The notes beneath the pieces are model-generated. The model was not told the origin of the DNA and ran no database searches. It worked only from the letters and a program-made list of their open reading frames with translations. 64,000 nt of DNA, taken from positions 1,786,871 through 1,850,870 of the forward strand of contig JAUJYN010000029.1 of assembly GCA_030737835.1 (NCBI GenBank), given 5' to 3'. Of the stretch, positions 1,554-47,102 are shown one piece after another. Position 1 is the stretch's first letter; every line of letters starts with the position of its first letter. The stretch comes from Acorus gramineus (lineage: Eukaryota > Streptophyta > Magnoliopsida > Acorales > Acoraceae). Position numbers and translations under genes: made by a program.

Positions 1554-4500
1554 TGTTATGCCTGTGTCATTTGGAGCCATTTTGGTTAAGCCTTGGTCGC
1601 ATCTCGGTCATTTAGGGCCTTTTTCTTTTTCGATCGGAGTCGCTAAAATTTTGGCTTTTAGCCACCTGCGGGAGTTGGAGTACTCTGATTGGAAATCTAA
1701 CTACATATTATGGGTCCTGGTACTGTTTCATACTACCCATAAAAATTTCATCGAATTCCGGTAACGTTTTGAAAAATATGCAGTTCCGAACCATATCCGG
1801 GTTTTGAGAGTTCCTGGTTGGTCGAATAGTGTGAGATATTTTGGGGATGTGGTGACCCTTGGTAACCTTACCCCCACCTTGCTTGGGGATGAAGAAACCA
1901 TTGGTTATTTGATATGTGAGTGGGTGAGCCTAACCCTAACCTCACCCCCCTTAAGGTCACCCCTAGGCACTATTTGGGCATGAAAATGACTTTTTTGCCC
2001 TCTGTCTCTCTCCCCCTCTCTCCCATTTCGTGGAACACCTTCTCTCCCTCTCTTGGTCTCTTTTTTTCTCCTCTTTGTGTGTGAAGAAGGAGGAGGAAGA
2101 AGCAATTGAAGGAAAAGATGAAGAAGAAGCACAAGAAAGAGTGAGAAAGGGTGAGTATGTGTTGTTGTTGTTGTTGTTTCTCTTCTCTATCCCCTTCTCA
2201 TGCCCCTTTGCACCCCTGTTTTCTGCCATGAAGGGATTGAGGAGATGCTGATGAGGTGGTGGTAGTGGTGGTGGTGGTTGAGGTGGTCGTGGGTGTGTCG
2301 AGAACCCCGCATCTCCCCATTTCCCTCCCCTATTTTGGTAAGGCAGCACTCTGTATTTTAAAGATCTCAGTGCATCTAGTATTTAGAGACACATTTTTAG
2401 GATTATGTCTTCATATGATATGATCATCTATGTGTCTAGTTGTTATATATGAAATTTGGGCTCATTATGATATCTGTGGTGTAAGTTAGAACCTGTTTTG
2501 CATGGCCTGTCCAGATTCGCGTAGGAATTGACCTGCTTCTGGAAATAATTTATTTCGGGCTTGTAGAGGAAAAATTAGGTTCTAATGTCTTCATGGATTA
2601 TGATCCCAGCATATCAGAGAATGTGCACGTTTTATTTCATAATTGTTGGAAGTGTATTGGGTGCTGTGGAGATCAATTAGTAGGGCTGGTTGCAGCAGGT
2701 TTGGCAGTTTTGTTTGGTTGAGTGTCAAGGAGTTGTTTGCATGTGTCTTGTGTGATAATATGGAAGTATCAGGGGTTAGGGTCTTCATGAAGTAGGCTTA
2801 TATGTGTGATAGGAGGTTCCATAATTTAATTATGGATCATTGGTTGTGTTTTGCAGATCTCATAGACCGGACGCGCGGCGATCCGGGTATCGGTGAGTGG
2901 TTTGATCCAACCCTTCGGGAAGCGTTGGATGCACATAGTCGTGCGTCGCGCATCCGTTGGGCACCCTGACTATACTACTTGTGTAGATAAGTAGTATGGC
3001 CATGCTTAGACTATAATATGTTAGATATCTTGCACGCTGGGCTTATATGGCATGTATTGTATCAATGTGTGAATGATTGTATCGCATGCGCCCCTCTAGT
3101 ATGGGCATGTATTCTGTAATGTGTATGGATGTATAGAATATGGCATGCCTTAGGTAGTATTTTAATACTACTCCTACCATATTAATTGGAATATCCAGCA
3201 TGATTAAGTCTGGGTTAATAACAGGCACCTGCCTAATATTCCCTTGCGATAAGACTCGAGGGCGTGGTGTAGTTGTTGCGCCCATGCTAATGGGGCAAAG
3301 CTATGACCAACTTCTTGAGATGATGATCTCTCTCGCCCTCTCCCTCTGCACGAACTGAGTAAGTAGATGCGATTTCCCACTCGACTCAGGTTCGTTTGGA
3401 ATATTGGCATGCACCTGTTAGTGCGCGAGATCGCGCTTGACCCTTTCTTTTAAGTTGGTGATATCCAACACATGCTTAAGTTATGCCTTGTGTGCTTATA
3501 TGATTAATGGCCACGTATGCATGTTTAAGTGGGCCATACCATGTATGATTTGTAAATCCATGTAAATCCATGTTAGGGAGTATCCCTATAATTATTTGAT
3601 AGGTTGTGCATGTAGTTCATGTACATAACTAAGATATAATTCTCCTATATATATGCGCATGTTAAAACTAATTAGGCCTATCTGAAATAGGCGTGGGTAT
3701 GACCCGTTGTCGGGTTGTACCTTATTAGTTAGAGCGCTAGCGATGTAATCGCCCCCGTGCATCCGAGCGATGCACTCGTTTGGAATTCAGGAGAATTCAT
3801 TATCTTATCGGTTTTGTTAAGCCGGTAGTTGTGGCATTAAGCTAGGCCTATAGGCGTGTATATGAACCGCTTGTTGGGTTATGTGCCTTGGGATTATTTC
3901 TGCGTGAGAGCAGAGGCAACCCCCTTGTGTTCGAGCGACGCAACCGTGTGGGAGTACAATAGTATTTGATATCATCGATATGTGATTATCGAGAGTAGTT
4001 TTTTCCATTGGGTTCGCTTTGCGAACATGGAGTGTTTCCTCCCAATGTCGTCCGTGTTGAAGAGGCCGGGTTGTAGCTGTCCTGACAGAGGGCTCCCATC
4101 CGTAGGTACCACCGATGCGTTCGGGAGCGTACTGATCGTGGGAGTGTACCAGGTAGAGGCTACCGGGAGAGGGCTAACGAATGATATTGCGAGCGTGGAA
4201 TCGTTCTCCCCTTCGTTGGATCCGATGTAGGAACTTCCCGGTGTTGGAAAAGCTGTCCTGACAGAGGGCTCCCATCCGTAGGTACCACCGATGCGTTCGG
4301 AAGCGTACTGATCGTGGGAGTATACCAGGTAGAGGCTACCGGGGAAAGGGCTACCGGTGGACCAAGGGTGTAGAGCAGTCTAATCTCTTCCAAAAGTCCT
4401 ATGTCACCTCTAAAGGGTGAGGGTGAGGATGAGGTGAAGACACGTCGCCGCGTGACCCATTCGTTGTTCGTCCGTTCCCATAGTTGTTGGGTCCGGTTGC

Positions 4501-9061: not shown

Positions 9062-12000
9062 CGGAGGAAGACTCTTGGGACTTTTGGGGAGAGACCATAC
9101 CGTTGGTCGAAGAGACGCGGAATTAGTGGTCCACACAACACTACTGAATCACCAACCTCACCCTCACCCTCACTCCCGGAGGGAGACTCTTGGGTCTCTT
9201 AGGGAGAGACCATACCGTTGGTCGAAGAGACCCGGAATTACTGGTCTACACAACGCTACTGGATCATCTACATCGGGATAACTGCCCAACGATGTCTTTG
9301 AACATCGATACGCAACCGGACCCAACGACTATGGGAACGGACGAACAACGAATGGGTCACGCTGCAACGTGTCTTCACCTCATCCTCACCCTCACCCTTT
9401 AGAGGTGATATAGGACTTTTGGAAGAGACTTAGACTGCTCTACACCCTTGGTCCACCGGTAGCCCTTTCCCCGGTTAGCCTCTACCTGGTATACTCCCAC
9501 GATCAGTACGCTTCCGAACGCATCGGTGGTACCTACGGATGGGAGCCCTCTGTCAGGACAGCTTTTCCAACACCGGGAAGTTCCTACATCGGATCCAACG
9601 AAGGGAGAACGATTCCACGCTCGCAATATCATTCGTTAGCCCTCTCCCGGGTAGCCTCTACCTGGTACACTCCCACGATCAGTACGCTCCCGAACGCATC
9701 GGTGGTACCTACGGATGGAAGCCCTCTGTCAGGACAGCTACAACCCGGGCCTCTTCATCATGGACGACATTGGGAGTAAATTGTCACGCCCCAGGGCGGC
9801 CGTCCCCGAGACGTGGCAATAATAAAATATCTGCTATCCATACCTGAGGTCAATAAAGGCTCCAACAACAATACACAAGGTGGCAAGGCAAGATAATGAT
9901 AACTGACTGAAAAGCGGAAGCATAATATATAAACAATGTCTGTAAATCAAAAACATTATTACAGACTCGAATACACAATCACTGTCTTGTGAGAGCCAAG
10001 TCTAGACCAAAGAAAATACAACCTGTGCCACATGCACGATTTACAAAACATAAAATGACTCTAGGAATGCTGACAGCCTCGCACTCACCATCCGCCGGAA
10101 GAACGCTCCACGCCCATAAGACCACGCCACAGGAAAGCTCCAACTCCACGCCCAACACTGCCCCTGAAAAGAAACAGTATGCGAGGGGTGAGCTACAAGC
10201 TCAGTGAGTGGTTGGAAACCAATCACCATACTACAGTTCAATACATAATCAATTCCCTTTTTCAAGGAAAAACATGGGTAGAAACCCAATGGATAACAGG
10301 GTCACGCGGCGGCGCGACCAACCTCACCCTCACCCTCGCTCCGGGAGGGAGACTCTTGGGACTTTTGGGAAGAGACCATACCGTCGGTCGAAGAGACCCG
10401 GAATTACTGGTCTACACAACACTACTGGATCATCTACATCTAGATAATTGCTCAAACGATGCCTTTAAACATCGATACAAGACCGGACCCAACAACTATG
10501 GGAACGGTCGAACAACGAATGGGTCACGCGGCGATATTCTTCACCTCATCCTCACCCTCACCCTTTAGGGGTGACATAGGACTTTTGGAAGAGATTTAGA
10601 CTGCTCTACACCCTTGGTCCACCGGTAGCCTCTCCCTCACTCCGTAGCCTCTACCTGGTATACTCCCACGATCAGCACCCTCCGATGCATCGGAGGTACC
10701 TACAGATGGGAGCCCTCTGTCATGCCGGGGAGTCCCTACTCGGATCCAACGAAGGGGAGAACGATTCCCACGCTCGCAACATCATTCGTTAACCCTCTCC
10801 CAGGTAGTATCTACAACCCGATCTCCTCAACTCACCGCTCTACACCCTTGGTCCGCCGGTAGCCCTTTCCCTAGGTAGCCTCTACCTGGTATACTCCCAC
10901 GATCAGTACTCTTCCGAATGCATCGGTGGTACCTACGGATGGGAGCCCTCTGTCAGGACAACTAAACCCGAGAAGTTTCTACATCGGATCCAACGAAGGG
11001 GAGAACGATCCCATGTTTGCAAAGCGAACCCAATGGAAAACAACTACTCTCGATACTCACTTATCGAGATATCAAAACATAGGCATAACAACAATCTATG
11101 CAACACACTCATATTAACCTTAAAATAATTAAAGTCCCTAAACGGGAGTAACTGTACAAGCTAGTGGGTCATAACATCGCCGACCCACCTCACCCTCACC
11201 CTCACCCTTTAAGGGGTGACATGGGCCTTTTGGGATAGACTAGACTGCTCTCCACCCTTGGTCCACCGGTAGCCTCTCCCACACTCCGTAGCCTCTACCT
11301 GGTATACTCCCACGATCAGCACCCTCCGACGCATCGGAGGTACCTACAGATGGGAGTCCTCTGTCAGGACAGCTTTCCAACGCCGGGGAGTCCCTACTCG
11401 GATCCAACGAAGGAGAGAAAACAGCCTACTCACGCGTATACGATCCTCTTGGATCCGTCGACAATGATTTCTAACACTACTAATGTCATGAATTCTCAAG
11501 AATTCCTCAAGGGCGCATAACTAAGATGCGGGGAAACATATATTATAACAACAAGGTTATAATATTCTCTAAGGCATGCTTATACCAATATAATCTCATT
11601 TGATTTAAATAAATTAAACTAAATGGGAAACATGCGTAGATCGAGGCTTTTCAAGCATGGGACATGGTGTCTAGGCATGTATGGGCCTCTATGCATGAAT
11701 CATGGGTGTATATCCCTAGCATATAATGTCTAACAAGGCATGGTTATATCATAGCAAACATGCATTAACATGGTATCTACATATTATAGCTAGGGGGCCC
11801 CATCGATGCGCGATGCGCGTCTATGCGGGTCGAGCGCATCCCTAGAGAGGGGGGGGGATTGGAATCGAACCACTCACCTTACAACCCGGGACCTCGCGCA
11901 TCCCATCCGACGAGATCTGCAAGGTAGGGGCATCCAATTTGGTGAGTAACAACACAATTTACACATGAAATTTACTAGAAATACCAAATACTCGGACAAG

Positions 12001-15000
12001 CATGCATACGGACTCGCACGCATGCGAGCACGCACGTACGCACGCGAGTCCGAGTGCCCCGACACCTACCCGAACCCTCGGGCAGCCACACGCATGGCCC
12101 CCCGCACGCGCACGCACGCACGCGCCCCAGCACCCTCGGCACGCTGCCGCGTGCCTGCCCGCGCCCCAGACGCGCTGCCGCGTGCGCCCGCGCGCACTGC
12201 GCGTCACACCCTCGGGTGCACTGCGCGCCCGCGCAGAACCCTGCGTATGCCCCAGCACGCTCATGCACGCACGCACACGCACGTGCGCGGGTGCACTGGC
12301 CCCCAGCCCCGCGCCCAGGCGCATGCCCAGGCGCACTGCCCCGCGCGCGCGCATGCTCGCGCGCGCCCGCGCGCACCCCCGCACCCAGCGCCCGCGCGCA
12401 CCCGCGCGCTCGCGCACATGCGCCCGCGCTCGTCTACGCGCCCGCCAACGCCTGCCACCGCCCGTCTGTACGCGCACACGCGCAGACTGCCCCCAACGCG
12501 CGCCCAGCCTTCCTTTACCCCTTTTTAACCCTCCCCAACCCCTCACACACACTCTAACTAATCTACCTGGCATGCATGACCTCCCCAACCATCCCAACAA
12601 CCCTAAAAATAAAAAAGAAGGGGAAGAGGACTTACCAAAAGAGGGAAACGGAAAGGGGGAGATGCGGGGCTCTCGACGCGCCCACGGCCACCTCAACCAC
12701 CACCACCACCACCACCACCACCACCTCTTCAGCCTCCTCAGCCTCCTTCTTGGCTGCAAAATCAGGGGGGGGGGAAGTCATGAAAAGGAGCTTGAGAGAG
12801 GAGGATCAACAACACAACACACCCACACAAACCTTCTTGTGCTTCCTTCTTCACCTTCTCCTTCACTTCTCTTTGTGACATTAACACAAACACTTGGGGG
12901 GCTTGAGAGAGAGGAAGAGAGAGCTTTGAAAACTGGGCGTGGGATGTGGGAGAGAGAGAGAGAGATATTTTGCCCAAATAAATATCTAAAGAGGGATGGA
13001 AATGACCATTTCATCTCTGACTTAGAAATTCTGTACATGCTTCACTAGAAAGGCCATAACTTCCTCAATATAGCTCCGAATTGCACAATTAAAATTCCGT
13101 TGGAAATCCAAGAAGATTATCTACAACTTTCATGTTTATGCCAAGATCAAATAATCTCTCCAGCTATTCCGAAATTAGAGCTAAACATAGAACAGGGCTG
13201 CTGCCAGAATTTCCCTCCCTGGGGTATACTTGGAAAAATACCCATAACTTTTACTACATGAATCCAGTTGATCTGATTCCACTTTTGTAAGAAAGCTAAC
13301 TCAAAACTGGACATCTCATAATAAAATCATATTTAAACCTCTTCATCTTGGATTTTAACAAAATCAAATCCAAATACCAAATTGGAAATACATAACTTTG
13401 AGGAAAAAATTATGTAGCCAAAATTTTCAATCAGAGCGCTCCAAATGACACAGGCATAACACATTCCATGTTCGCAAAGCGAACCCAATGGAAAAACAAC
13501 TACTCTCAATAAATCACATATCGATGATAGCGAACACTATTGTACTCCAACACGGTTGGGTCGCTCGGACACAAGGGGGGGGGTTGCCTCTGCTCTCACG
13601 CAGAAATAATCCCAAGGCACATAACCCAACAGACAGTTCATATACACACCTCGCACGGGTAGGCCCAGCTTAATACCACAACTATCGGCTTAACAAAACC
13701 GATAAGATAATGAATTCTCCTGAATTCCAAACGAGTGCATCGCTCGGATGCATGGGGCGATTACATCGCTAGCGCTCTAACTAATAAGGTACAACCCGAC
13801 AACGGTCATGCCCACGCCTATTTCAGATAGGCCTAATCAGTTTTAACATGCGCATAATTATTACATGAGAATTCTATCACTGAAGGAACTTGATCCACAT
13901 GCACAATAACATATGCTTAACTATAGGGTTTCTCCCTAACATGAGTATATGGCATAAACAACACATCATGCAACATACATACAAGGCAAGGCCTAACTAC
14001 ACATGCATATGAGGGCACTAATCGAATAAACATCCAAAATATACACTAACATGCGTTGGATATCGCCAACTTAAAAGAAAGGGTCAAGCCCAATCTCGCG
14101 CACTAACAGGTGAATACTAATATTCCAAATGAACCCGAGTCGAGTAGAAAATCACCTCTACTTACTCAGCTCGTGCAGAGGGAGAGGGTGAGAGAGATCA
14201 TCATCTCATGAAGTTGGTCATAGCTTTGCCCCATTAGCATGGGCGCAACAACTACACCACGCCCTCGAGTCTTATCGCAAGGGAATATTAGGCAGGTGCT
14301 CGTTATTAACCAAGACTTATTCTAATTTATATGGTGGGAGTAGTATTACAATACTACCTAAGGCATGCCATATTCTATACATCCATACACATTTCAAAAA
14401 TACTTGCCCATACTAGAGGGCGCATGCCACACAATCATTCATACATGTATACAATACATGTATATAAGTCTAGCATGCGAGATATCTACATATTATAGCT
14501 TAAGCATGGCCATACTACTTATCTACACAAGTAGTATAGCTAAGGTGCCCCATCGATGCGCGAAACACGACTTCGCGCGTCGAGCGCATCTCGAGGGGGG
14601 GGGGGGATTGGATCAAACCACTCACAGATACCCGTATCGTTGCGCGTCTGGTCTACGAGATCTGCAAAACACAACCAATGATCCACAATTAAAATATGGA
14701 ACCTCCTATCACACATGTAAGCCTACTTCATGAAGGCCCTAACCCCTGATACTTCCATATTATCACCCAAGACACATGCAAACAACTCCTTGACACTCAA
14801 CCAAGCAAAACTGCCAAACTGCTGCAACCAGCCCTACTAATTGGTCTCCACAGCACCCAATACACTTCCCAAAATTATGCAATAAATCATGCACATTCTC
14901 TGATATTCTGGGATCATAATCCATAAAGACATTAGAACCTAATTTTTCCTCTACAAGCTCGAAACAAATTATTTCCAGAAGCAGGTCAATTCCTACATGA

Positions 15001-15972
15001 ATCTGGACAGGCCATGCAAAACTGGTTCTAACTTACACCACAGATATCATAATGACCCCAAATTTCATATATAACAACTAGACACATATATGATCATATC
15101 ATATGAAGACATAATCCTAAAAATGTGCCTCTAAATACTAGATTCACTGAGATCTTTAAAATACAGAGTGCTGCCTTACCAAAACAGGGGGAGGGAAATG
15201 GGGAGATGCGGGGTTCTCGACACACCCACGACCACCTCAACCACCACCACCACTACCACCACCTCATCAGCATCTCCTCAAGCCCTTCATGGCAAAAAAC
15301 AGGGGTGCAAAGGGGCATGAGAAGGGGATAGAGAGAAGAGAAACAACAACAACAACAACAACACATACTCACCCTTTCTCACTCTTTCTTGTGCTTCTTC
15401 TTCATCTTTTCCTTCAATTGCTTCTTCCTCCTCCTTCACACACAAAGAGGAGAAAAAAAGAGACCAAGAGAGGGAGAGAAGGTGTTCCACGAAATGGGAG
15501 AGAGGGGGGAGAGAGAGAGAGGGCAAAAAAGTCATTTTCATGCCCAAATAGTGCCTAGGGGTGACCTTAAGGGGGGGGGGGTGAGGTTAGGGTTAGGCTC
15601 ACCCACTCACATATCAAATAACCAATGGTTTCTTCATCCCTAAGCAAGGTGGGGGTAAGGTTACCAAGGGTCACCACATCCCCAAAATATCTCACACTAT
15701 TCGACCAACCAGGAACTCTCAAAACCCGGATGCGATTCGGAACTGCATATTTTTCAAAACGTTATCGGAATTCGGTGAAATTTTTATGGGTAGTACTAAA
15801 CGGTACCAGGACCCATAATATGCAGTTAGATTTCCAATCAGAGTACTCTAACTCCCATAGGTGGCTAAAAGCTAAAATTTTAGCGACTCCGATCGAAAAA
15901 AGAAAAGGCCCTGAATGACCCAGATGTGACCAAGGCTTAACCGAAATGGCTCCAAATGACACAGGCATAACA
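8900..15972 (-). repeat. Element R, 5' LTR (interrupted)
   Basis: On the minus strand this corresponds to the first 3.3 kb of a family 2 LTR like the C 5' LTR. The pieces are 13462-15972 and 8900-9781, separated by the LTR at 9782-13461. The TG end is at 15972 and abuts Tat sequence. The part nearest the primer site is absent, lost at the polarity-flip junction. The right flanking pentamer is atgcg; the left flank of R is outside the window, so I cannot check a target duplication. Confidence 0.8.
9782..13461 (-). mobile_element. LTR S: complete minus-strand Tekay-type LTR, no interior
   Basis: This 3680-bp sequence starts TGTCACGCCCC at 9782 and ends ...GGCATAACA at 13461, the reverse of a complete family 2 LTR. 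Both flanks are R LTR sequence that reads on from one side to the other. The flanking pentamers (taaat left, cattc right) do not match, so it is a solo LTR either formed between two different insertions or altered at its edge. It belongs to the subfamily with three copies of the 100-bp module (near 10640, 10850 and 11270) and a CpG-dense block (11990-12510). A (GA)n run lies at about 12951-12964. The long Arg/Ala-rich frames across 11959-13048 are by-products of base composition. Confidence 0.85.
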
Positions 15973-17161: not shown

Positions 17162-17348
17162 TGTAGAGGTAAAAATCCTCACCATGACACATGTTATATC
17201 AGGGGTAATGTGTCACACCAGGACGGACGTGGGCCTACCATGGGACCCGCAAATTCAAGTTCTGATCCTTGGCCATGATGACTCTGCCAAATGTACTAAA
17301 ACGACTAGATCCAGTGTCTAGTTGGGCGGTTGGGCACCTAGAGAGCGA

Positions 17349-17827
17349 CTAGTCTAAGGCACGACAAGACATGAGGTCTGGTCGGTCGACCTTACTTCTC
17401 GAAGGCAAGTAGTCTAAGGCACGACTAGACATGAGGTCTGGTCGGTCGACCTTACTCCTCGAAGGCGAGTAGTCTAAGGCACGACCAGACATGAGGTCTG
17501 GTCGATCGACCTTACTCCTCGAAGGCGAGTAGTCTAAGGCACGACCAAACATGAGGTATGGTCGGTCAACCTTTCTCCTCGAAGGCAAGTAGTCTAAGGC
17601 ACGACCAGACATGAGGTCTGGTCGGTCAACCTTATTCCTCGAAGGCGAGTAGTCTAAGGCACGACCAGACATGAGGTCTGGTTGGTCGACCTTACTCCTC
17701 AAAGGCGAGTAGTCTAAGGCACGACCAGACATGAGGTCTGGTTGGTCGACCTTACTCCTCGAAGGTGAGTAGTCTAAGGCATGACCAGAAATGAGGTCTG
17801 GTCGGTCGACCTTACTCCTCGAAAGCA
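17349..17827. repeat. 60-bp minisatellite, eight units, in the Tat LTR
   Basis: Eight units keep an exact 60-bp period. Each contains AGTAGTCTAAGGCACGAC, ATGAGGTCTGG and GGTCGACC-type palindromic sequence, with a few substitutions per unit. The minus strand is open through the array as a 20-residue repeat (SKVDRPDLMSGRALDY core) only because 60 is a multiple of three. Confidence 0.95.
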
Positions 17828-17965: not shown

Positions 17966-20669
17966 TGTCACGCCCCAGGGCGGCCGTCCCCGATACGTGG
18001 CAAATATATATAATATCAGCAGTCCATACAGGAGATCAATAAAAGACTCTAAACAACCTCGAAGATAATAACACAATTAACAATGTAGCTGACATAATAT
18101 ATATACATATAGCGGAAGCTTAAACAACCTCGAAGATAATAACACAATTAACAATGTAGCTGACATAATATATATACATATAGTGGAAGCTTAAACGACT
18201 GAGTCTGTAATTAAAAGACATATTACAGACCAGAATACATAATCAACTGTCCTGTGAGAGCCAATACAAACAAAGACATCTATATAAAGTTTTGTGCCCA
18301 AGAACGAATAACAATACATACTAGCAAAAAGAAGGGGATGATGATGGCCTCTCACTCGCAGAACCCAAAACGCGAACGTTGTTCTGCTACTGATGTGATG
18401 CCTCGGGGAGCTCCTCCTTCAGATCCGACTCAGTAACAACTGGAGGGAAAGATATGAGAGGGGTGAGCCACACACTCAGTGAATGGCACAATTTATGCAA
18501 TACAACTCATATTAACCTTAAAATAATTGGTGGGTCGTAGCGTCGCCGACCCACCCCACCCTCACCCTCACCATTTAGAGGTGACATAGGACTTTTGGGA
18601 CAGATAGGACTGCTCCACACCCTTGGTCCACCGGTAGCCCTTTCCCCGGGTAGCCTCTACCTGGTATACTCCCATGGTCAGTACATTCCCGAATGCATCG
18701 GTAGTACCTACCGATGGGAGCCCTCTGTCAGGACAGCTTTTCCCAACCCGGTTAGTTCCTACTCGGATCCAACGAAGGGGAGAAAACAACCTACTCTCAC
18801 GGATACGATCCTCTTGGATCCGTCGACAACGATTACTAACACTACTAAGGAAATGAATTCTCAAGAATTCCTCCGGGGCGCATAACTAAGATGCGGGGAA
18901 AAACATACATTATAATAACAAGGTTATAATATTTTCTAAGGCATGCTTATACTAACATATTCTCATTTTGGTTTAATTAAATTAAACTAGATGGGAACAT
19001 GCATAGATCAAGGCTTTTCAAGCATGGGACATGGTGTCTAGGCATGTATGGGCCTCTATACATGATACATGGATGTATATCCCTAGCTTACGATGTCTAA
19101 CATGGTATGGTTACATCATAGCAAAACATGCATTAACATAAGTTTTCATTCACACAAGTTAATATGTAGTTATGGTGCCCCAAGGGAGGGCAATGCACGC
19201 CTACGTGCATCGAACGCCTCCCTACTGGGTTGGATTGACCCACTCACCGCAACCCGGGTCGTTGCGGAACCGTTCGCCAAGATCTGCAAGACAAGGGCAT
19301 TCAATATGGTGAGTAAACTACACAAATATACATGAAATTTACTAGAAATGCCAAAAACTCGGACAAGCATGCATACGGGCTCGCACGCATGCGAGTACGC
19401 ACGTACGCACGCAAGTCCGAGTGCCCCGACACCTACCCGAACCCTCGGGCAGCCACACGCATGGCCCCCTGCACACGTACGCGCCCATACGCACGCACGC
19501 ACGCGCCCCAACACCCCCTGGTGCATTGCCGCGCGCCCAGACGCGCTACCGCGCGCGCGCACATGCTCGCACGCGCCCGCGCGCAAAGCTAGTCCTACCT
19601 GCGCACACTCGCACGCACTGCGTGCCTACCCTGCGCAGAACCCCGCGCGTACTCTCGCGCGCCTGCGCGTAAGCGCATGCACCCGCCAGCGCGCCCGACT
19701 GTGCGCTCCAGTGCTTCCCTACGCGCGCAGAGGCGCGCGCACGCGTGCAAATGGCACCGCGCACGCGCCCAAACCTCCCCCACCCCCTTTTCAGCCCACA
19801 CACCCACCCTAAACCCTATGCATGGCATACATGAACACCCTAAGAGCCTTTATCAAACATTTAAACAAGGATAAGGGAGGAGGAGAGCTTACCAAAGGAG
19901 GGGAAAGAAAGGGGAGGAAATCGGGTGCCCTTGGCGCACCAAACCACCTCAACCGCCACCACCAACACCACCACCTTCTCAGCCACTCCTCAAGCCTTTA
20001 ATGGCTGAAATCAGGGGTTGGGGGGGAGGCATGAGAGGGAGTTAGAGAGAAGAGAATCAAAGCATAACAACAACAACCAAAGCTTGCACACACATACCTT
20101 TCTCTTTTCCTTTTAATGTTTCTTCTTCTCCTTCTTGTTCTTCTTTTATTTAACACAAAAAAAACAAAGAAAACCAGGGAGTGAAGGAGAGAGTGAGAGG
20201 GAGAGGATGAGAAGGGGACGCCCACCTATAGTGTACACACACACACTCACACACACATTCTTCATTAAATGTGAAAAAGGGGGTGGTTGGGGGATTGACT
20301 TTGAGTCAACCCAACCAAACTACCAAACAAAAACCCTTGACTAGTGAAAGGTCATCTTTGATTAGTTAAGGTCTTTGTTGACTTAGTCAAAGTCACCCTT
20401 TGACAATTCAAAATCGGTCAAAACCCGGATACGATTTGGAACTGCAAATTTTTTGAAACGTATCCAGAACTCGATGAAATTTCTGTGGCCAATACCAATG
20501 ACACCTGGACTCATAATATGCAGTTAGATTTTCAATCGGAGTTCTCGAACTCACACAGATAGCTAAAAGTCTAAAATTTTAGCGGCTCCGATCGAAAAAG
20601 AAAAATTGGAAAACTACCAGAAATGACCCAAAGGTGACCAATAGGCTAAAAAGTGACACATATATAACA
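17966..20669 (-). repeat. B 3' LTR
   Basis: This 2704-bp LTR runs from TGTCACGCCCC (reverse of ...GGGCGTGACA) to ...ACACATATATAACA. It differs from the B 5' LTR by an extra 71-bp tandem copy at 18122-18192. It contains the CpG-dense block (19365-19770) and the 36-nt conserved segment on the minus strand near 19248-19283. Confidence 0.92.
18051..18192. repeat. 71-bp tandem duplication in the B 3' LTR
   Basis: Two head-to-tail copies, 18051-18121 and 18122-18192, differ by one or two bases (AGCGGAAG versus AGTGGAAG). The B 5' LTR has one copy at the same place, so the duplication arose after insertion or in the last replication cycle. Confidence 0.92.
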
Positions 20670-24919: not shown

Positions 24920-27475
24920 TGTTATATATGTGTCACTTTTAGCCTTTTGGTCACCTTAGGGACATTTCTGGCAGTTTTCCAACTTTTTGTTTTTTTATCA
25001 GAACCGCTAAAATTTTGGACTTTTAGCTATCTTCATGAGTTCGAGAACTCCGATTGAAAATATAACTGCACATTATGTGTCCTGGTGCCATTTTGAACCA
25101 CTCACGAAAATTTCATCAAATTCTGATAACGTTTCAGAATTTGACAGTTCTGAATCGTATCCGGGTTTTGACTGAGTGGGAATGTCAAAGGGGGGACTTG
25201 ACCAAGTCAAAGAAGACTTGGACCAAGTCAAATTTGACCATTGACTTGGTCAAATACTTTTGTTTTTTTGTGTGGTTGGGTTGACTCAAAGTCAAGCCCA
25301 CCAAACCCTAATTGTTCTAAGTGTGTGAGTGTGTGTGTGTGTGTGTGTCACTAGTGTTGGGCGTCCCCCTTCTCTTCTCTCTCTCTCACACACACTCCAT
25401 CTCTCCCTCTTCTTTCCTTTGTTTCTCCCATTAGAGGTAGTAGAAGAAGAAGAAAAGGAAAACCCTAGAAGGGAAAAAGAGAGGTATGTGTGTGATCTAC
25501 CTTTGTATGGTTTTTGTTTTGATTTCCCTTTCTCTACCTCCCTCTCATGGCTTCCCCCACCTCTGTTTTCAGCCATCTTTAGGCCTTGAGAGTGGCTGAG
25601 GTGGTGGTGGTCTTGGTGGTGGCGGTTGTGGCGGTTTGGTGCGCAAAGGGCACCCGAGCTTCCTCCCTTTTTCCTTTCCCTCCTTGTTGGTAAGTCTTCC
25701 TCCTCCCCTAGCTTGTTTAGATGATTGATTAGGGTGTTTAAATGGTTATGCATGCTTTGCATAGGTGGTAGGGGGTGGAAGGGGCTCGGGCTCGCGCGCG
25801 GAGCCATCCGCGCGCAACGGCGCGCTGGCGGGCGTGCACGCGTACACGCAGACGCGCGGGCGTGCGCGCTGGCGTGCCCCCGGGGTGCTACGCGGGGGTG
25901 CAGTGCACGCGGGTACGCGCTGGGCTGGACTCGCGGTGCGCGCGAGCGTGCGCTCGGGCAGGGGCGCGGCAGTGCGCCAGGGGCGCAGGGGCGCATGCGT
26001 GCGTGCGCATTCGTGCGTGCGCGTGCGGGGGCCATGCGTATTGCTGCCCGAGGGTTCGGGAGAGTGTCGGGGCACTCGGACTCGCTTGCGTACGCGCGTG
26101 CTCGCATGCGTGCGAGTCCGTATGCATGCTTGTCCGAGTATTGGGTATTTCTAGTAAATTTCGTGTGTATTTGTGTAGTTTACTCACCATATTGAATGCC
26201 CATGTCTTGCAGATCTTGACGGACGGTCACGCAACGACCCGGGTTTCGGTGAGTGGGTCAATCCAACCCAGTAGGGAGGCGTTCGATGCACGTAGGCGTG
26301 CATTGCCCTCCCCTGGGGCACCATAATTGTATATTAACTTGTGATAAATGGAAAACTATGCAATGCATGATTAATATGATGTAACCATGCCACATTAGAC
26401 CTTGTATGCTAGGGATATGCACTCATATATCATGTATAGAGGCCCATACATGCCTAGACACCATGTCCCTGTATTGGAAAGCCCCGATCTATGCATGTTT
26501 CCCATTTAGTTTAATTTGTTTAAATCAAATGAGAACATATTGTTATAAGCATGCCTTAGAGAATATTATAACCTTGTTGTTATAATATATGTTTCCCCGC
26601 ATCTTAGTTATGCGCCCTGGAGGAATTCTTGAGAATTCATGACATTAGTGTTACAAATCGTTGTCGACGGATCCAAGAGGATCGTATCCGTATGAGTAGG
26701 CTGTCTTCTCCTTTTGGTTGGATCCGAGTAGGGACTCCCCGGCGTTGGAAAGCTGACCTGACAGAGGGCTCCCATCTGTAGGTACCTCCGATGCGTCGGA
26801 CAGTGCTGATCGTGGGAGTATACCAGGTAGAGGCTACGGAGTGTGGGAGAGGCTACCGGTGGACCAGGGTGGAGAGCGGTCTAGTCTGAAAAGGCCCATG
26901 TCACCCCCTTAAAGGGTAAGGGTGAGGGTGGGGTGGGTCGGCGATGTTACGACCCACTAACTTGTGTAGTTACTCCCGTTTAGGGACTATAATTATTTAA
27001 GGTTAATATGAGTTGTGTTGCATAGATTGTGCCATTCACTGAGCGTGTGGCTCACCCCTCGCATATTCTTTTCCTCCAGTTGTATCTGAGTCGGATCTGA
27101 AGGAGGAGCTCCCCGAGGCACCACAGCAGTAGCGGAGCAGCGTCACGTTTTGGGTTCTGCGAGTGAGAGGCCATCAGCATCCCCTTCTTGATTGTATGTA
27201 TTGTTATCCGTGCTTGGGCACACACTTGTATTTGGATGTCATTGTTTATATTGGCTCTCACAGGACAGTTGATTATGTATTCGGGTCTGTAATATGTCTT
27301 TGAATTACAGACTCAGTCGTTTAAGCTTCCGCTATATGTATATATATTATGTCAGCTCATTATTGTCTGTTTTCATTTTCGATGTTGTTTAGAGTATTTT
27401 ATTGATCTCCTGTATAGACTGCTGATATTATATATATTTGCCACGTATCGGGGACGGCCGCCCTGGGGCGTGACA
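24920..27475 (+). repeat. A 5' LTR
   Basis: This 2556-bp LTR runs TGTTATATATG...GGGCGTGACA. Splice-like signals in order are a donor AGGTATGTG (GT at 25484), acceptor TTTTCAG ending 25572, donor TTGGTAAGT (GT at 25690), acceptor CTTGCAG ending 26212, donor GGTGAGTGG (GT at 26249) and acceptor CCTCCAG ending 27079. A CpG-dense block (about 25785-26140) lies inside the second intron-like interval. A 10-bp-arm hairpin is at 26563-26588. A (GT)n run lies at about 25322-25348. Confidence 0.95.
26213..26248 (+). other. Conserved 36-nt segment between splice-like signals
   Basis: The segment begins ATCTTGACGGACGG and ends GGGTTTCG, flanked by TTGCAG and GTGAGTGG. Segments of exactly 36 nt with the same flanks occur in the C 5' LTR (2857-2892), A 3' LTR (33753-33788), H 5' LTR (46752-46787), L (62869-62904) and, on the minus strand, B. 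The S, G and F versions are 36-39 nt. Confidence 0.8.
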
Positions 27476-27480
27476 AAAGT

Positions 27481-27492
27481 TGGTATCAGAGC
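27481..27492 (+). other. Primer binding site of A
   Basis: TGGTATCAGAGC, complementary to the initiator Met-tRNA 3' end, lies five bases after the 5' LTR. Confidence 0.95.
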
Positions 27493-27588
27493 CTGGTCCT
27501 GTCAGAGCCAATTGTTTTCTTAGAGATGAGTCCTAGGATTTCTATATGAGTATTCTGATCCTAGTGTCTGTTTTCTTAGGTTGCTGAT

Positions 27589-30500
27589 ATGCCTCCTCGC
27601 AGAGGAACGTGTGGACGTGGTCCCCCTCGGCCCTTGGAGGTTTCCGAACCTACCAGAGGCGAGGAGTCTACTGGAGGGTCCTCGGCTATGGGGCCAGGAC
27701 CGGCGCAGGAGCCTCCTGCATGGGAGCGTGCTTACGCTCGTATCGCAGATCTAGTGGAGACTCAGACTAGGGCACTGGAGGCCCAGACTAGGGCGTTAGC
27801 TGAGCAGGCACGAGAGATCCAGGAGCTGCGGATGGCCCGCGAGGCAGTTCCACAGGTCCCCTTGGTGGCAGATCCACCGGTGGTGCCCGAGGTACCCCCT
27901 GTCCCAGTGGTGATTCCGGTGGTGGGAGTTCAGGATCCCCTAGAGAGGGAGGTGGAGCTAGAGGCTGCAGCACGAGTGCATCAGAGCGGCCTCACTGCCT
28001 TTCTGAAGCTCCACCCTCCCGAGTTCCATGGCCAGACGGACCCCCTTGCCCCTGAGCGTTGGTTGATGGAGGTAGACAAGATCTTCTCGACCATGCACTG
28101 CACCGACCGCCAGCGTGTCTCACTGGCCACCTTCATGTTGAAGGGTAGCGCCGCCGACTGGTGGGCTACCCGATCGGTGGACATCCCCGAGGGAGTGGAG
28201 CGACTTCTATGGGCTGGGTTCCGGAGGTACTTTCTGGAGGAGTACTTCCCGTTTTCGACACGCCAGATCGTGATGCGAGAGTTCGAGCAGCTGACGCAGG
28301 GCTCCATGTCAGTCGCTGACTACTCCACACGTTTCACGAGGCTTTCCCGGTTCGCCCCCGCCTTGGTGATGGATGAGGAGACGCGATGCCGTCGTTTCGA
28401 GATGGGTCTCATTAGCACCATCCGGGTGCATGTCACCTCACAGGCGTTCACGAGGTACTCAGACTTGGTGTCTCGTGCGAAGACAGTCGAGCGAGACCTT
28501 GGGGTCCCTTTGGGGGTTCCAACCCCTTCTGCAGACCAGAGGCCCCCCAGGAGCCAGGACCAGGGACATCGCAAGAAGAAGCGGCCCCGCTTTGATCAGT
28601 CAGCGGCCGCCGCTACTCCAGTCGATGTGGTGCCAGCGCGAGGTCCAGCACCCATTGCGGCAGTACCAGTCCAGGCCAGGCAACCGGAGATGCGGCGCTG
28701 TTACCATTGTCAGCGCGTCGGGCATATTTTATATAATTGCCCTGATGCTGGCCGACCCCGTGTGCTGCACCAGCAGCAGCAGCTGCAGCAGCAGCAGCCA
28801 CGCCAGCAGCAGCAGCCACAGCGTCAGCAGCAGCAGCCACAGGGTGGCCGAGTTGACCAGAGGAGGCAGCCAGTGCAGCCTGCGAGGCGTGCCCCTGCTC
28901 CTCAGCCGCAGTTTGTTCAGGGTCGAGTTGCAGCACTTTCAGCCGAGGAGGCGCAGGCTTCGGGTAGCGTGGTCCGAGGTATTGTTTTGATCTCCCAGCT
29001 CCCTGCATATGTGTTATTTGATTCCGGAGCCACGCACTCGTTCGTGTCTCCCGTTTTTGCGAGACGGATGGGCGTGGTGTCCGCCCCTCTTGATGTTATG
29101 CTGGAGATATCATTGCCCGTCGGAGACCGTATTCTCCTCCGTTCTGTTTACCGAGGGTGTACCGTGGTGATTGCGGAGCATGAGTTTCCAGTAGAGTTGG
29201 TAGAGCTCGCCATGACGGACTTCGATGCCATCCTGGGAATGGATTGGCTCTCAGCTAGTCACGCCAGCATCGACTGTTTTGCGAAGTCGGTGTCTTTCCA
29301 CCTTCCGGGTCGGAGATCTTTCCAGTTCGTGGGCGATCGTGACATAGCCCCTTTGGGGTTCGTGTCATCCATCCAGGCGTGGAGACTCCTTCAGGGAGGA
29401 TGTGAGGGCTTTCTGGCGTATATTGCTGAGGAGGATGCACCACTGCGGGCAGATATCAGTCAGACTCCGGTCGTGGTGGAATATCCGGAGGTTTTCCCCG
29501 ATGATCTTCCGGGATTACCGCCGGATCGCGCGATCGAGTTTGAGATTAATCTAATTCCGGGGACCGAGCCGATTTCGAGAGCTCCGTACCGGATGGCCCC
29601 AGCAGAGCTGAAGGTGCTCAAGGAGCAGTTGGAGGAGTTGCTCGAGAAGGGCTTCGCACGTCCGAGTGTTTCTCCGTGGGGAGCCCCTGTTTTGTTCGTT
29701 CGGAAGAAGGACGGTTCGCTGCGTCTTTGTATTGATTACAGGCAGCTGAACAAGCGGACCGTGAAGAACAAGTACCCCTTGCCACGGATTGACGATCTGT
29801 TTGACCAGCTCCAGGGAGCGCGTGTCTTTTCTAAGATCGATCTCCGTTCGGGCTACTATCAGCTGAAGATCCGGGAGTCAGATATTCCGAAGACGGCCTT
29901 TCGTACCCGTTATGGGCACTACGAGTTCCGAGTACTGCCGTTTGGGTTGACGAATGCGCCGGCAGCCTTCATGGATCTGATGAACCGGGTGTTTCGGCCC
30001 TTCCTCGACTCCTTCGTAGTAGTCTTCATCGATGATATTCTGGTGTACTCGAGGAGTCTTGAGGAGCACGCTGACCATCTCCGCACTGTCTTGGAGACTT
30101 TGGCCCGACATCAGTTGTTCGCCAAGTTCAGTAAGTGCGAGTTTTGGTTGGAGCGTATGGCCTTTCTAGGCCACGTGATTTCCGGCGAGGGTATATCTGT
30201 GGACCCGGACAAGACGCTCGCCGTGTCGAATTGGCGTCGACCGTCGAACCCCACAGAGATTCGGAGCTTCCTGGGTTTGGCGGGTTATTATCGGAGGTTT
30301 GTCGAGGGTTTCTCGAAGATAGCTGTTCCTCTGACCCGCCTCACTCGGAAGGATGTCCGGTTCGAGTGGTCCCCATCTTGCGAGGAGAGCTTCCTGGAGT
30401 TGAAGCGAAGGCTCACCTCAGCGCCAGTTCTTACCATTCCGTCTGGGAGTGGTGGATTCGCAGTCTACTCCGATGCATCGCGGCTGGGTGTGGGTTGCGT

Positions 30501-32359
30501 CCTGATGCAGTACGGTAAGGTTGTGGCTTACGCGTCGCGTCAGTTGAAGCCCCATGAGCAGAATTACCCCACCCACGATTTAGAGTTAGCAGCGATCATC
30601 TTTGCGCTGAAGATGTGGAGGCACTACCTCTATGGCGAGGAGTTCGAGCTCTTCACTGATCACAAGAGCTTGACTTACTTGCAGTCCCAGCCGGAGCTCA
30701 ACATGCGTCAGAGACGTTGGGTCGAGTTCCTGAAGGACTATGATTGTGACATCGCTTACCATCCGGGTAAGGCGAATGTCGTGGCCGATGCTCTCAGCAG
30801 GCAGCCCTTGGGCATGGCCGCCCACTTGGCTGTACGTCGTTGGAGGCTTCTGGAGGAGGCCGCTTGCTGGATCAGCGTTCGAGAGACACCTGCGGGTGGC
30901 TTTTTGGCCAGGCTAGTGGTGCAGCCCGTTCTTCTCGACGAGATCCGCACGGCTCAGGGGCAGGATCCTCACTTTCTAGTCCTCTCTGAAGGCGTCGCCC
31001 GGGGCGAGCGTCCGGACTACCAGATTCGCGAGGACGGAATCCTGCGGTTCAGAGGTCGAGTATGCATTCCTGACGACGCAGAGTTGAAGCAGAAGATCTT
31101 GGACGAGGCCCATCGTTCGAGGTACACAGTGCATCCTGGTGGCACGAAGATGTACAGGGGCCTTCGTCGTGGCTACTGGTGGCGCGGGATGAAGGCGGAT
31201 ATTGGCCGTTTCGTTGCCCGTTGCTTGGTATGCCAGCAGGTGAAGTCGGAACATCAGCGTCCTGCGGGGAAGCTGCAGTCCATTGAGATTCCTCAGTGGA
31301 AGTGGGAGCAGATCACCATGGACTTCGTTTCGGGCTTGCCGAGGTCACGTTCGGGTCGCGATGCCATCTGGGTAATCGTCGACCGACTGACTAAGTCCGC
31401 TCATTTCCTCCCCATTCGACTCACCGATTCTCTGGACACCCTGGCGCAGTTGTTTGTCTCCGAGATTGTTCGTCTCCATGGCACTCCCGTCAGCATCATT
31501 TCTGATAGAGACGCGAGATTTACTTCGAGGTTCTGGCGTAGCCTTCAGCACGCCCTTGGTACGAACCTCCACTTCAGTACAGCGTTTCATCCGCAGACGG
31601 ACGGCCAGTCGGAGAGGACGATTCAGACCCTGGAGGACATGCTGCGAGCTTGCGTTCTCGACTTTGGGGGCAGTTGGGAGAGGCATCTTCCGTTGGTGGA
31701 GTTTGCCTACAACAACAGCTACCACTCGAGTATCCGGATGGCACCATATGAAGCGCTCTATGGCCGCAGCTGCAGGTCCCCCTTGTGTTGGGACGAGGTC
31801 GGAGAGCGCCAGTTGGAGGGACCAGAGATCATCCACCAGACCTCAGAGATGGTCAAGACGATTCGTGAGCGTATCCAGTCGCTCAGAGCCGTCAGAAGAG
31901 CTACGCCGATCGTCGTCGCCGTGAGCTCGCCTTCGAGGTTGGTGACCATGTTTTCCTGAAGGTGTCCCCGATGAAGGGCATCTTCCGTTTCGGTGTGCGG
32001 GGCAAGCTGAGTCCGCGTTTCATTGGGCCGTTTCTCATCCTCGAGCGGGTTGGAGAGGTGGCCTATCGCATAGCCCTGCCCCCACAGTTGGCTCAGCCCA
32101 TGACGTCTTCCATGTCTCGCAGCTGAGGCGTTACGTCCACGATCCTGCTCACGTTATTCCGTTCGAGCCGCTCGTCTTCGAGCCGGACTTGTCATTCGTG
32201 GAGCAGCCGATCGAGATCCTGGACCGACGCGAGAAGAGGCTCCGCACCAAGACCGTCCAGCTGGTTAAGGTGCGATGGCAGCACCGTTCTGGTGCCGAGG
32301 CCACTTGGGAGCGCGAGGACGCCATGCGTGGCGCATATCCGCATCTTTTCCCTTCCTAG
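27589..32359 (+). CDS. A gag-pol polyprotein region (gag, protease, RT, RNase H, integrase, chromodomain)
   Basis: This is a single long gag-pol frame, the usual Tekay arrangement. The start [13 protein letters not shown] sits ten bases after an acceptor-like TTTTCTTAG. Parts are the gag core (about 27990-28500), the CCHC knuckle (28699-28740), a Gln-rich linker (about 28770-28850), the aspartic protease DSGATHSF (29020), RT with [13 protein letters not shown] and [11 protein letters not shown] (active aspartates near 30028-30036), RNase H with [10 protein letters not shown] (near 30465), the integrase zinc motif (about 31110-31240), the integrase core with MDFVSGLP (31318), ISDRDARF (31498) and TDGQSER (about 31595-31615), and a chromodomain ending in PHLFPS at 32359. 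The product would assemble a virus-like particle, copy its RNA and integrate near silent chromatin. It looks nearly whole, with about one break; it is treated as a fossil. Confidence 0.93.
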
Positions 32360-32407: not shown

Positions 32408-35023
32408 TGTTATATATGTGTCACTTTTAGCCTTCTGGTCACCTTTGGGACATTTCTGGCAGTTTTCTAACTTTTTCTTTTTTGATCGGAACCGCTAAAA
32501 TTTTGGACTTTTAGCTATCTGCATGAGCTCGAGAACTCCGATTGAAAATCTAACTGCACATTATGTGTCCTGGTGCCATTTCGAACCACTCACGAAAATT
32601 TCATCGAATTCCGGTAACGTCTTAGAATTTGGCAGTTCCGAATCGTATCCGGGTTTTGACCGAGTGGGAATGTCAAAGGGGGGACTTGACCAAGTCAAGG
32701 AGACTTGGACCAAGTTAAATTTGACCATTGACTTGGTCAAATCCTTTTATTTTTTTGTGTGGTTGGGTTGACTCAAAGTCAAGCCCACTAATTGTTCTAA
32801 GTGTGTGAGTGAGTGTGTGTGTGTGTGTGTGTCACTAGTGTTGGGCGTCCCCCTTCTCTTCTCTTCTCCATCTCTCTCACACACTCCATCTCTCCCTCTT
32901 CTTTGTTTCTCCATTAGAGGTAGTAGAAGGAGAAGAAAAAGAAAACCCTAGAAGGGAAAAAGAAAGGTATGTGTGTGATCTACCTTTGTATGGTATTTGT
33001 TTTGATTTTCCTTTCTCTACCTCCCTCTCATGGCTTCCCCCCCCTGTTTCAGCCATTTTTAGGGCTTGAGAGTGGCTGAGGTGGTGGTGGTCTTGGTGGT
33101 GGCGGTTGTGGCGGTTTGGTGCGCAAAGGGCACCCGAGCTTCCTCCCTTTTCCCTTCCCTCCTTGTTGGTAAGTCTTCCTCCTCCCCTAGCTTGTTTAGA
33201 TGATTGATTAGGGTTTTTAAATGGTTATGCATGCTATGCATAGGTGTTAGAGGGTGTGGGTGGACTGAGGAGGGGGTGGAAGGGGCTCGGGCGAGCGTGC
33301 GGAGCCATTTGTGCGCGTGCGCGCGCGTTTGCACGCGCAGATGGGGGCGCTGGCGGGCGCGCGTGCGTACGCGTAGACGCGCGGGCGTGCGCGCAGGGTG
33401 CTGCGCGGGCGCGCAGTGCGCGCGGGTACGCGCTGGGCTGGACGCGCGGTGCGCTCGAGCGTGCGCGCGGGCGCGGCAGCGCGTCTGGGTGCGCGGGCAA
33501 GGGCGCGGTAGTGTGCCGGAGGCGTAGGGGAGCATGCGTGCGTGCGCATTCGTGCGTGCGCGTGCGGGGGGCCATGCGTGTGGCTGCCCGAGGGTTCGGG
33601 TGGGTGTCGGGGCACTCGGACTCGCGTGCGTACGCGCGTGCTCGCATGCGTGCGAGTCCGTATGCATGCTTGTCCGAGTATTGGGTATTTCTAGTAAATT
33701 TCGTATGTATATGTGTAGTTTACTCACCATATTGAATGCCCATGTCTTGCAGATCTTGACGAACGGTCACGCAACGACCCCGGTTTCGGTTAGTGGGTCA
33801 ACCCAACCTAGTAGGGAGGCGTTCGATGCACGTAGGCATGCATTGCCCTCCCCTGGGGCACCATAATTGTATATTAACTTGTGATAAATGAAAAACTATG
33901 CAATGCATGATTAATATGATGTAACCATGCCACATTAGACCTTGTATGCTAGGGATATGCACCCATATATCATGTATAGAGGCCCATACATGCCTAGCCA
34001 CCATGTTCCCTGATTGTAAAAGCCTCGATCTACGCATGATTCCCATTTAGTTTAATTTGTTTAAATCAAATGAGAACATATTGTTATAAGCATGCCTTAG
34101 AGAATATTATAACCTTGTTGTTATAATATATGTTTCCCCGCATCTTAGTTATGCGCCCTGGAGGAATTCTTGAGAATTCGTGACATTAGTAGTGTTACAA
34201 ATCGTTGTCGACGGATCCAAGAGGATCGTATCCGTGTGAGTAGGCTGTCTTCTCCCTTTGGTTGGATCCGAGTAGGGACTCCCCGACGTTGGAAAGCTGA
34301 CCTGACAGAGGGCTCCCATCTGTAGGTACCTCCGATGCGTCGGACAGTGCTGATCGTGGGAGTATACCAGGTAGAGGCTACGGAGTGTGGGAGAGGCTAC
34401 CGGGTGGACCAAGGGTGGAGAGCAGTCTAGTCTGAAAAGGCCCATGTCACCCCCTTAAAGGGTAAGGGTGAGGGTGGGGTGGGTCGGCGATGTTACGACC
34501 CACTAACTTGTGTAGTTACTCCCGTTTAGGGACTATAATTATTTAAGGTTAATATGAGTTGTGTTGCATAGATTGTGCCATTCACTGAGCGTGTGGCTCA
34601 CCCCTCGCATATTCTTTTCCTCCAGTTGTATCTGAGTCGGATCTGAAGGAGGAGCTCCCCGAGGCACCACAGCAGTAGCGGAGCAGCGTCACGTTTTGGG
34701 TTCTGCGAGTGAGAGGCCATCAGCATCCCCTTCTTGATTGTATGTATTGTTATCCGTCCTTGGGCACACACTTGTATTTGGATGTCATTGTTTATATTGG
34801 CTCTCACAGGACAGTTGATTTGTATTCGGGTCTGTAATATGTCTTTGAATTACAGACTCAGTCGTTTAAGCTTCCGCTATATGTATATATATTATGTCAG
34901 CTACATTATTGTCTGTGTTGTCATTTTCGATGTTGTTTAGAGTATTTTATTGATCTCCTGTATAGACTGCTGATATTATATATATTTGCCACGTATCGGG
35001 GACGGCCGCCCTGGGGCGTGACA
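32408..35023 (+). repeat. A 3' LTR
   Basis: This 2616-bp LTR has the same plan as the 5' LTR: 36-nt segment at 33753-33788, CpG-dense block about 33285-33665, (GT)n run near 32806-32832. It ends GGGCGTGACA and is followed by the target duplication aacat and then B gag. Where the two LTRs differ in the first 330 bases, the 3' copy mostly keeps C or G. Confidence 0.95.
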
Positions 35024-45603: not shown

Positions 45604-47102
45604 TGAGCTAAAATTAGCCCCCCACTATTCATCTTCTTCTCCAATGGATTTCTCTCTCCCCCTCTCTCTTTTTCTTGGTTTTGACCTAGCTAGAGGGGTT
45701 AAAATCAAAAGCACAAAGAAGAGAAAGGTTAGATCTCATCCCGATCTATCCACCGGTGGTCTCGGATTCGAGTTCCCGCGAGTTTGACCCCCTCTAACAC
45801 CCTCTTTTCTCCTCTGATTTCAGCCCCTTTGAAGGTTGAAAGAGTTCTTGGTGGTGGAGGGCTTTGGGGAGGTGTTTCGGTGCACGAAGAGCTCCCGGTC
45901 TTCCCTTCCTTCCTTTCCTTCCTAGGGTAAGCTTTCTTTTCCTCCTTTTCTTGCTTAGATGCTTGTTTAGGAGGTGTTTGGGGTGCTGGTGGTTGTGGGT
46001 GGTTGCTGGTGGCTGTTGGAGGCCATTGGTGGCCGGTGAGGGGTGGTAGAGTGGCTCGGGCAGGCAGGCAGGGTAGGCGGGCTGTCCCAGGTAGGCTGGC
46101 AGGCAGGCAGGGCAGCGCAGGCGACACAGGCTGGGCGTTGTGGGGAGTGCACGCGCGTGTGCGCGCGGGCGTGCGCTCGGGTGGAGTAGGAGGGTGTGCT
46201 GGGCGCTGGGCGCGGGTGCTGGGCGAAAGTCGCGGATGCTGGGCGTTGGGGTGCTGCGCGCTGGGCGCCGTGCGGGGGCGTGCGCGCGGGGCGCTGCGCG
46301 AGGCGCAGTGCGTGCCGTGTGGGTGCGCGTGCGGGGCGCTGCGCTGGGACGCAGTGCGCGCGGGTGCACCCGGGGCTGGATGAGCGGGTGGTGCGAGCGG
46401 GTGATCCGAGCGGGGGGTGCGCGCGGGGCGAGGCGATGGGGTGCGGGTGTGCGCGCGGGTTGCTGCGCTGGGGTGCAGTGAGCGCGCGGTGCACCCGGGA
46501 GGTCTCGGCAGGGTGTCCGGGCGTGCGGGCTGAGCTCGGCAGGGCGTCTGGGGGCGCGGGCAGGGGCTCGGCTGCGCGCCCGGGGCGGGTGGCTGTGCGT
46601 GCGGCTGCCCGGGGGTTCGGGAATGGGTTGGGGTGCTCGAGCTCGCGTGCGTACAGGCCGTATGTACGCTTGTCCGAGTGTTGTGTATTTTTAGGTATTT
46701 TTGGATTTATTTGTGTATTTTACTCACCGATCTGATTATCCTATCTTGCAGATCTGGACGGACGGTCGTGCGACGACCCGGCTACCGGTGAGTGGGACAA
46801 TCCAACCCAGTAGGGAGGCGTTACATGCACTTGGGCGTATACCGCCCTCCCCTGGGGCACCATGGATTTATATAAACTGTTATAATGTGTAATCCATGCA
46901 AGCATGATAAAAATGTAGTATGCATGCTACCCTAGACTCTGTATGTTAGGGACTTGCACCCTTAGGATATGTGTAAGAGCCATGCATCCTGTCACCCTGT
47001 TCTCATGCTAGGAAGCCTCGGCCTATGCATGCGTCCTACTAGTTTATTTTATTAAATTAAATGCAAGCTTAAGTTTAATTGCATGCCTTAGATAATATTA
47101 TA

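Follow-up and report, generated by a model that had tools for sequence, protein, structure and literature searches.

Element A and the splice-like layout of its LTRs

The window analysed here is a 64-kb stretch of the Acorus gramineus genome, and it holds on its forward strand an LTR retrotransposon, element A, whose 5' LTR (24920..27475) and 3' LTR (32408-35023) were read directly in the sequence, together with the 5-bp duplication AACAT that bounds them (24915-24919 and 35024-35028). The primer-binding site (PBS) of A, TGGTATCAGAGC at 27481..27492 (+), is presumably that of the initiator-Met tRNA. A single gag-pol frame of 1456 aa follows (27589..31959, +), in which Pfam places protease, RT, RNase H and integrase in the Ty3/gypsy order PR-RT-RH-INT; the zinc-binding domain of the integrase scores above the Pfam cut-off and the core match below it. 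With its LTRs, its PBS, and gag and pol in this order, A is a Ty3/gypsy LTR retrotransposon. An earlier sequence-only reading had used the name Tekay. The Tekay clade is not established for A; Pfam gave no Chromo match in the last 299 aa of A at E values up to 10, a search that diverged chromodomains may escape. From the sequence, A seems to have inserted into element B, which lies on the minus strand with LTRs at 38307-35668 and 20669-17966, the AACAT duplication flanking A. Beside the end of the B 3' LTR, at 17345-17825, stand direct repeats, offset by 60 and 120 bases and 92-94% alike. No known structured RNA was found in the 64-kb window at the Rfam threshold.

The sequence-only reading had placed a donor, an acceptor, a segment of about 36 nt and a second donor in one order in the LTRs of several elements, and this order was found as placed in the A 5' LTR, C, L, the A 3' LTR and B (minus strand). 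In the 5' LTR of A (+), intron 1 occupies 25484..25572 (89 nt, AGAG/GTATGT to TTTTCAG/CC), exon 2 25573..25689 (117 nt, with no ATG), intron 2 25690..26212 (523 nt, TTG/GTAAGT to TTGCAG/ATCT), exon 3, which is the 36-nt segment, 26213..26248, and the donor that follows it, here called donor 3 (GTGAGTGG), 26249..26256. Intron 2 of the A 3' LTR measures 584 nt (33169..33752, +; exon 3 33753-33788). Element C, of family 2, has an intron 1 of 83 nt (2151..2233, +), an exon 2 of 104 nt and an intron 2 of 519 nt with a GC of 0.38 (2338..2856, +; exon 3 2857-2892), while intron 2 is 520 nt long in L (62349..62868, +; exon 3 62869-62904) and 518 nt in a further family-2 LTR (14662..15179, -; exon 3 14661-14626). 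H carries an intron 2 of 825 nt (45927..46751, +; exon 3 46752-46787), the B 3' LTR one of 609 nt (19284..19892, -; exon 3 19283-19248), and a K-type LTR one of 719 nt (11917..12635, -) with an exon 3 of 39 nt; exon 3 of the B 5' LTR lies at 36947-36912 (-). Some details had to be amended: H has the layout, but with a donor of different place and form (TAGG/GTAAGC at 45927); the acceptor TTGCAG is that of A, but L reads TTGTAG; donor 3 is conserved but is mutated to GTTAGTGG in the A 3' LTR; and, of 67 copies in which the segment was measured, 56 have 36 nt and the others 37-39 nt.

Copies for comparison were sampled through a PBS pattern, so that their choice was independent of the splice-like sites. 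The first 20 of 100 listed places were taken (4056 genome-wide), all of them on contig C1. The segment stands upstream of the PBS in 19 of these 20, with the acceptor AG intact in 18 of the 19 and GTGAGTGG following the segment in every one. Across 34 copies from the window and the PBS sample, the five border bases preceding the segment (0.94-1.00 conserved) exceed the filler at -30 to -13 (only 0.29-0.59), although the count was ungapped, which lowers distant positions; further conserved bases stand at -10 (1.00) and -32 (0.88), and conservation extends beyond the segment into the following ~20 bases. Among 72 unspliced copies, 67 have AG immediately before the segment. A rule-based search for the donor (a pyrimidine-preceded GT(A/G)AG) succeeded in 60, where intron 2 ranges from 431 to 1361 nt and from 0.36 to 0.74 in GC. 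Introns 1 and 2 both have GT...AG borders with donor and acceptor consensus. The borders are kept while the length and GC of the filler vary, and length is not kept. The result that the sequence-only reading had named as refuting, borders conserved no better than the filler, was not seen among the copies examined. The lengths of 523, 519 and 520 nt given earlier for A, C and L were correct, as was the difference in filler (GC 0.64 in A against 0.36-0.38 in C and L), but the argument for introns that had been built on a constant length falls: given the overall range and the 584 nt in A's own 3' LTR, the agreement is a coincidence, and equal length was dropped as evidence. The leader proposed from this layout would comprise exon 1, intron 1, exon 2, intron 2 and an exon 3 of 36-39 nt.

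Copies that lack exactly the introns

Were the fillers retrotransposon introns, occasional reverse transcription of spliced RNA would be expected to leave LTRs without exactly the filler. The genome (398.6 Mb, 137 contigs) was searched for such copies, or fossils, with junction probes at up to 3 mismatches, the reversed pattern serving as control. The family-1 exon2/exon3 probe, of 25 bases, matched 6 places in the genome (control 0). All six were read; four are genuine (L009-L012), and L013 and L014, unspliced look-alikes whose acceptors are similar to the probe, were dropped as spliced copies. In L009, L011 and L012 the homologues of introns 1 and 2 of A (25484..25572 and 25690..26212) are precisely absent; L010 lacks intron 2 and retains intron 1. 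For family 2 the exon2/exon3 probe gave 46 places in the genome (control 0), of which 21 were read (L045-L064 and L086), and the junction was present in all 21; exons 1 and 2 are readable in 18 of these (17 of L045-L064, and L086), and intron 1 is missing in all 18. Other sequence lies upstream of the junction in L046, L047 and L052, from a few to ~100 bases away; that of L046 and L047 resembles the start of an LTR in inverted orientation, as a nested insertion would leave. An H-type junction probe matched 8 places (control 0), one of them L010; since two of the six family-1 matches proved false on reading, a few of the 25 unread family-2 matches and the seven other, unread H-type matches may be false as well. 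Both introns are missing in 21 of the 22 read copies with readable exons 1 and 2, the exception being L010.

A family-1 probe for the exon1/exon2 junction matched 5 places (control 0), and four of these lie 108-117 nt from an exon2/exon3 match (twice on C3, once each on C66 and C54), so that two independent probes agree. The fifth, C66:686293, a probe match only, is on the same strand as the C66 fossil and 5.1 kb away; the 5' LTR of that fossil was not found at C66:686900-690000. Of 40 candidates scored in a BLAST search with the intronless stretch of L009, 3 matched over the full length, and these are again the C66 and C3 copies; in the remaining 37, exons 1 and 2 matched separately.

Intron 1 itself carries a further trace of splicing. 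In the A, B and K copies it ends in TTTCAG or TTTTGCAG, followed by CCA. Four family-2 copies, namely C, D, L and the minus-strand copy at 15179, have lost this AG (TTTTCTG or TTTTTTG; TTTTCTG in C). In fossils of the lost-AG kind AAAGG is joined to GGCTTGAGG, which places the junction at the following AG, 8 nt further on (ATGAAG/GG in fossils related to C); in others, among them L045, L053, L060 and L061, the junction is at CCATGA. Read from these junctions, the shift of acceptor to the next AG is the behaviour of a spliceosome and is hard to explain otherwise.

The composition of intron 2 adds a point of its own. Intron 2 of A has a GC of 0.64 against 0.46, 0.58 and 0.61 in the A exons, with a CpG-dense, G+C-rich middle and AT-rich ends (25760-26120). 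By the usual plant rule introns are not G+C-richer than exons (PMC3735527), and intron 2 of A runs against it. Close relatives of the fossil L009 recovered by BLAST have an intron-2 GC of 0.61-0.67, and a G+C-rich intron 2 of this kind seems to be spliced.

The fossils read as insertions of leader-spliced element RNA. L012 is followed by a PBS, and L011 lies 5.6 kb on, on the same strand, both being intronless and 96-98% alike. Similarly, L086 and L056 are intronless family-2 LTRs on one strand, 5.7 kb apart and 96% alike, with a polypurine stretch preceding L056 (the place of a PBS downstream of L086 fell outside the stretch read). Each pair looks like the two ends of one element; for L011/L012 no clean target-site duplication was found, nor a polypurine tract before L011. 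L010 is a solo LTR with the 5-bp target-site duplication GGTTT on both sides.

Other copies were noted alongside these. The intronless pairs L055/L057 and L060/L061 stand on different contigs or 351 kb apart and are 94-98% alike; renewed movement of an intronless lineage, or two separate losses, may account for this. At C3:2035576-2042347 of the genome (G000), five family-2 acceptor matches on one strand follow at steps of ~1.68-1.69 kb, next to an intronless C3 element, which suggests a tandem array of LTR sequence.

A tree was drawn of 27 family-2 copies, 20 spliced and 7 unspliced, leaving out one short unspliced row and L046, whose exon 3 is broken. Spliced and unspliced copies are interleaved on it and cluster no more than shuffled labels do, with only 7 unspliced rows to place, some of them long-branched. 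The state changes 7 times, and at least 5 of these changes are forced by starred branches; intron loss thus recurs on this tree. The direction is not given by the tree alone. It comes from two other observations: unspliced acceptors far outnumber spliced places, by 1331 to 46 in family 2 and 10450 to ~11 in family 1 (rough figures, as the probes differ in reach), and groups A, C, H and K have a common intron-2 insertion point with GT-AG ends. Loss rather than gain follows from these. The opposite course, with intronless LTRs as the ancestral form and the fillers inserted later, can appeal to the silence of tree parsimony on direction, but it is highly improbable in the face of the same counts, and repeated gain at one base in four groups is implausible. 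We give as little credence to the proposal that the borders are ordinary blocks of shared ancestry and that the intronless copies arose by chance or by recombinational deletion. Conservation does run on past exon 3, as plain homology would have it; deletion, however, would not repeatedly end at GT and AG, and do so at both introns at once, as it would have to in 21 of 22 read copies, and such paired, precise losses contradict it, as do the reversed controls (0 against 46, 6 and 8 matches) and the two separate probes that mark the same loci in four of five cases. Indirectly, through retrotransposed copies, the genome record instead shows introns 1 and 2 to have been cut from element RNA at exactly these borders, and spliced element RNA to have been repeatedly reverse-transcribed and inserted. 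Taken as a whole, the best explanation is that the LTRs carry a spliceosomal leader whose spliced RNA has been copied back into the genome, and we put its probability at about 0.9.

Donor 3 and a proposed separation of RNA pools

The first two introns of the leader pattern in the sequence-only reading thus stand, on copies that lack exactly these stretches, but the further intron that it had drawn from donor 3 to an acceptor at 27078..27079 (+) does not. The junction of exon 3 to 27080 has 0 matches in the genome for family 1 and family 2 alike, and 24 of 25 read fossils run past exon 3 into the donor-3 sequence, the exception being L046, which is broken in exon 3. RNA spliced between these two sites would retain the PBS, and yet no junction was found, so that this intron is without support and was rejected. 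A candidate acceptor that the sequence-only reading had not named, and that appears to fit donor 3 better, lies at 27578..27579 (+; TTTTCTTAG/G, with TTAG/G at the border), 9 nt before the gag ATG, and its TTAG is present in 24 of 25 elements examined. The junction of donor 3 to this acceptor also has 0 matches in the genome, an outcome predicted both by a model in which the splice removes the PBS and by plain non-use of the donor. In the former, the mRNA would lack the PBS, could not be copied by the normal route and would leave no fossils. We hold it a little short of an even chance that donor 3 is joined to the acceptor before gag with removal of the PBS.

The distribution of ATGs bears on this candidate splice. 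Exons 1-3 of A hold 0 ATGs, against 3.6 in mononucleotide shuffles (a fraction of 0.022 of 5000 shuffles was as low; exon 1 was assumed to start at 25340), while introns 1-2 hold 14 and the stretch between 26249 and gag holds 34. With exon 1 assumed from ~25340, among the forms considered only the splice to the gag acceptor would make the gag AUG the first. The argument is not general: exons 1-2 of C, in family 2, hold 3 ATGs, and it was set aside there.

Since introns 1 and 2 are removed from the RNA and also lost in LTR copies, transcription must start upstream of intron 1, and both introns must fall within R-U5. Copying of spliced RNA erases the introns from new LTRs, and most replicating RNA would therefore be expected to keep them. 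An unspliced replication pool would then exist beside a spliced pool, and intronless copies would arise when the two leak into one another. It is known that introns can raise expression (intron-mediated enhancement), and the LTR introns might, on a weaker footing, be kept because they do so or because they hold promoter elements. The fullest form of the proposal is that LTR-resident introns separate translation from replication: splicing in three steps would yield a PBS-less mRNA with gag at the first AUG, only intron-retaining RNA would be a proper replication template, and intronless LTRs would count the mixing of pools. We offer this as a tentative reading, with the odds somewhat against it.

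Two other accounts give the splicing, or donor 3, another meaning. The splicing may be accidental, as in human L1, with cryptic sites in the promoter and leader, dead-end spliced copies and no service to the element; the spliced integrated elements of L1 are so described (PMC5860796), and here, too, spliced copies are a minority (46/1377 and ~11/10461 places, roughly, given probes of different reach). The sites are nevertheless kept across copy groups despite a three-fold range in intron-2 length and a GC from 0.36 to 0.74, and a lost acceptor has been replaced by its neighbour, which suggests upkeep; neither point is decisive, and we regard accident as unlikely, though deserving of some weight. 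Slightly less probable still is that donor 3 is kept not for splicing but to bind U1 and so to block premature polyadenylation in the 5' LTR, by analogy with the major splice donor of foamy virus, for which a role against premature polyadenylation has been reported (PMC3694450). The conservation of donor 3 with no junction from it in three probes speaks for this, but a good acceptor before gag is conserved as well.

Relation to known systems and implications

Human L1 is a LINE and has no LTRs. Its spliced integrated retrotransposed elements (SpIREs) arise when the 5' untranslated leader is spliced and the RNA is reverse-transcribed, giving copies without the intron (PMC5860796). They are the nearest precedent for the LTR fossils, which likewise look like inserted leader-spliced element RNA: as leader-spliced insertions the fossils belong with SpIREs, but as copies of an LTR retrotransposon they are not LINE-1 elements. 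They also differ from SpIREs in that the introns lie in the LTR, where one spliced template can erase the introns of both LTRs, and in that different copy groups have preserved the splice sites. Among plant LTR retrotransposons, two sources record spliced RNA for Ogre, EVADE, BARE1, Bagy2 and CRR, with splicing in BARE1 and EVADE leading to a separate Gag RNA (PMC12786077; PMC3735527). The introns of Ogre, EVADE, BARE1 and CRR are placed there in or between coding regions, unlike the LTR introns described here. A yeast Ty reporter of 1985 carried an artificial intron whose loss in new copies proved an RNA intermediate (described in PMC12786077); here, by contrast, the introns are the element's own and their loss is natural.

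The splice donor of foamy virus and of HTLV-1 lies in the R region, and only the donor is in the LTR, the acceptor being downstream. As in foamy virus (PMC3694450) and HTLV-1, the present leader has a 5' splice site within the RNA transcribed from the LTR, but it differs in that the donor and the acceptor of two introns both lie inside the LTR. In a review of 2025 the LTR elements of plants are said to 'generally lack introns', Ogre and EVADE being among the exceptions (PMC12786077). In the open-access literature searched, including passages of PMC12786077, PMC6317226 and PMC3735527, no description of introns wholly inside an LTR was found, and PMC3059260 has no mention of splicing, intron or leader.

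An intron in R-U5 is erased whenever spliced RNA is the template, yet more than ten thousand places in this genome keep the intron-2 acceptor (1331 and 10450). The ratio of intronless to intron-bearing LTRs would measure the leakage between pools, roughly 46 to 1331 in family 2 and ~11 to 10450 in family 1, and how a single transcript is shared between translation and reverse transcription would thereby become measurable. The splicing of a G+C-rich intron bears on how introns are recognised in plants. Annotation and age estimates in which spliced and unspliced LTRs are aligned with one another would mistake a precise intron loss for a large deletion.
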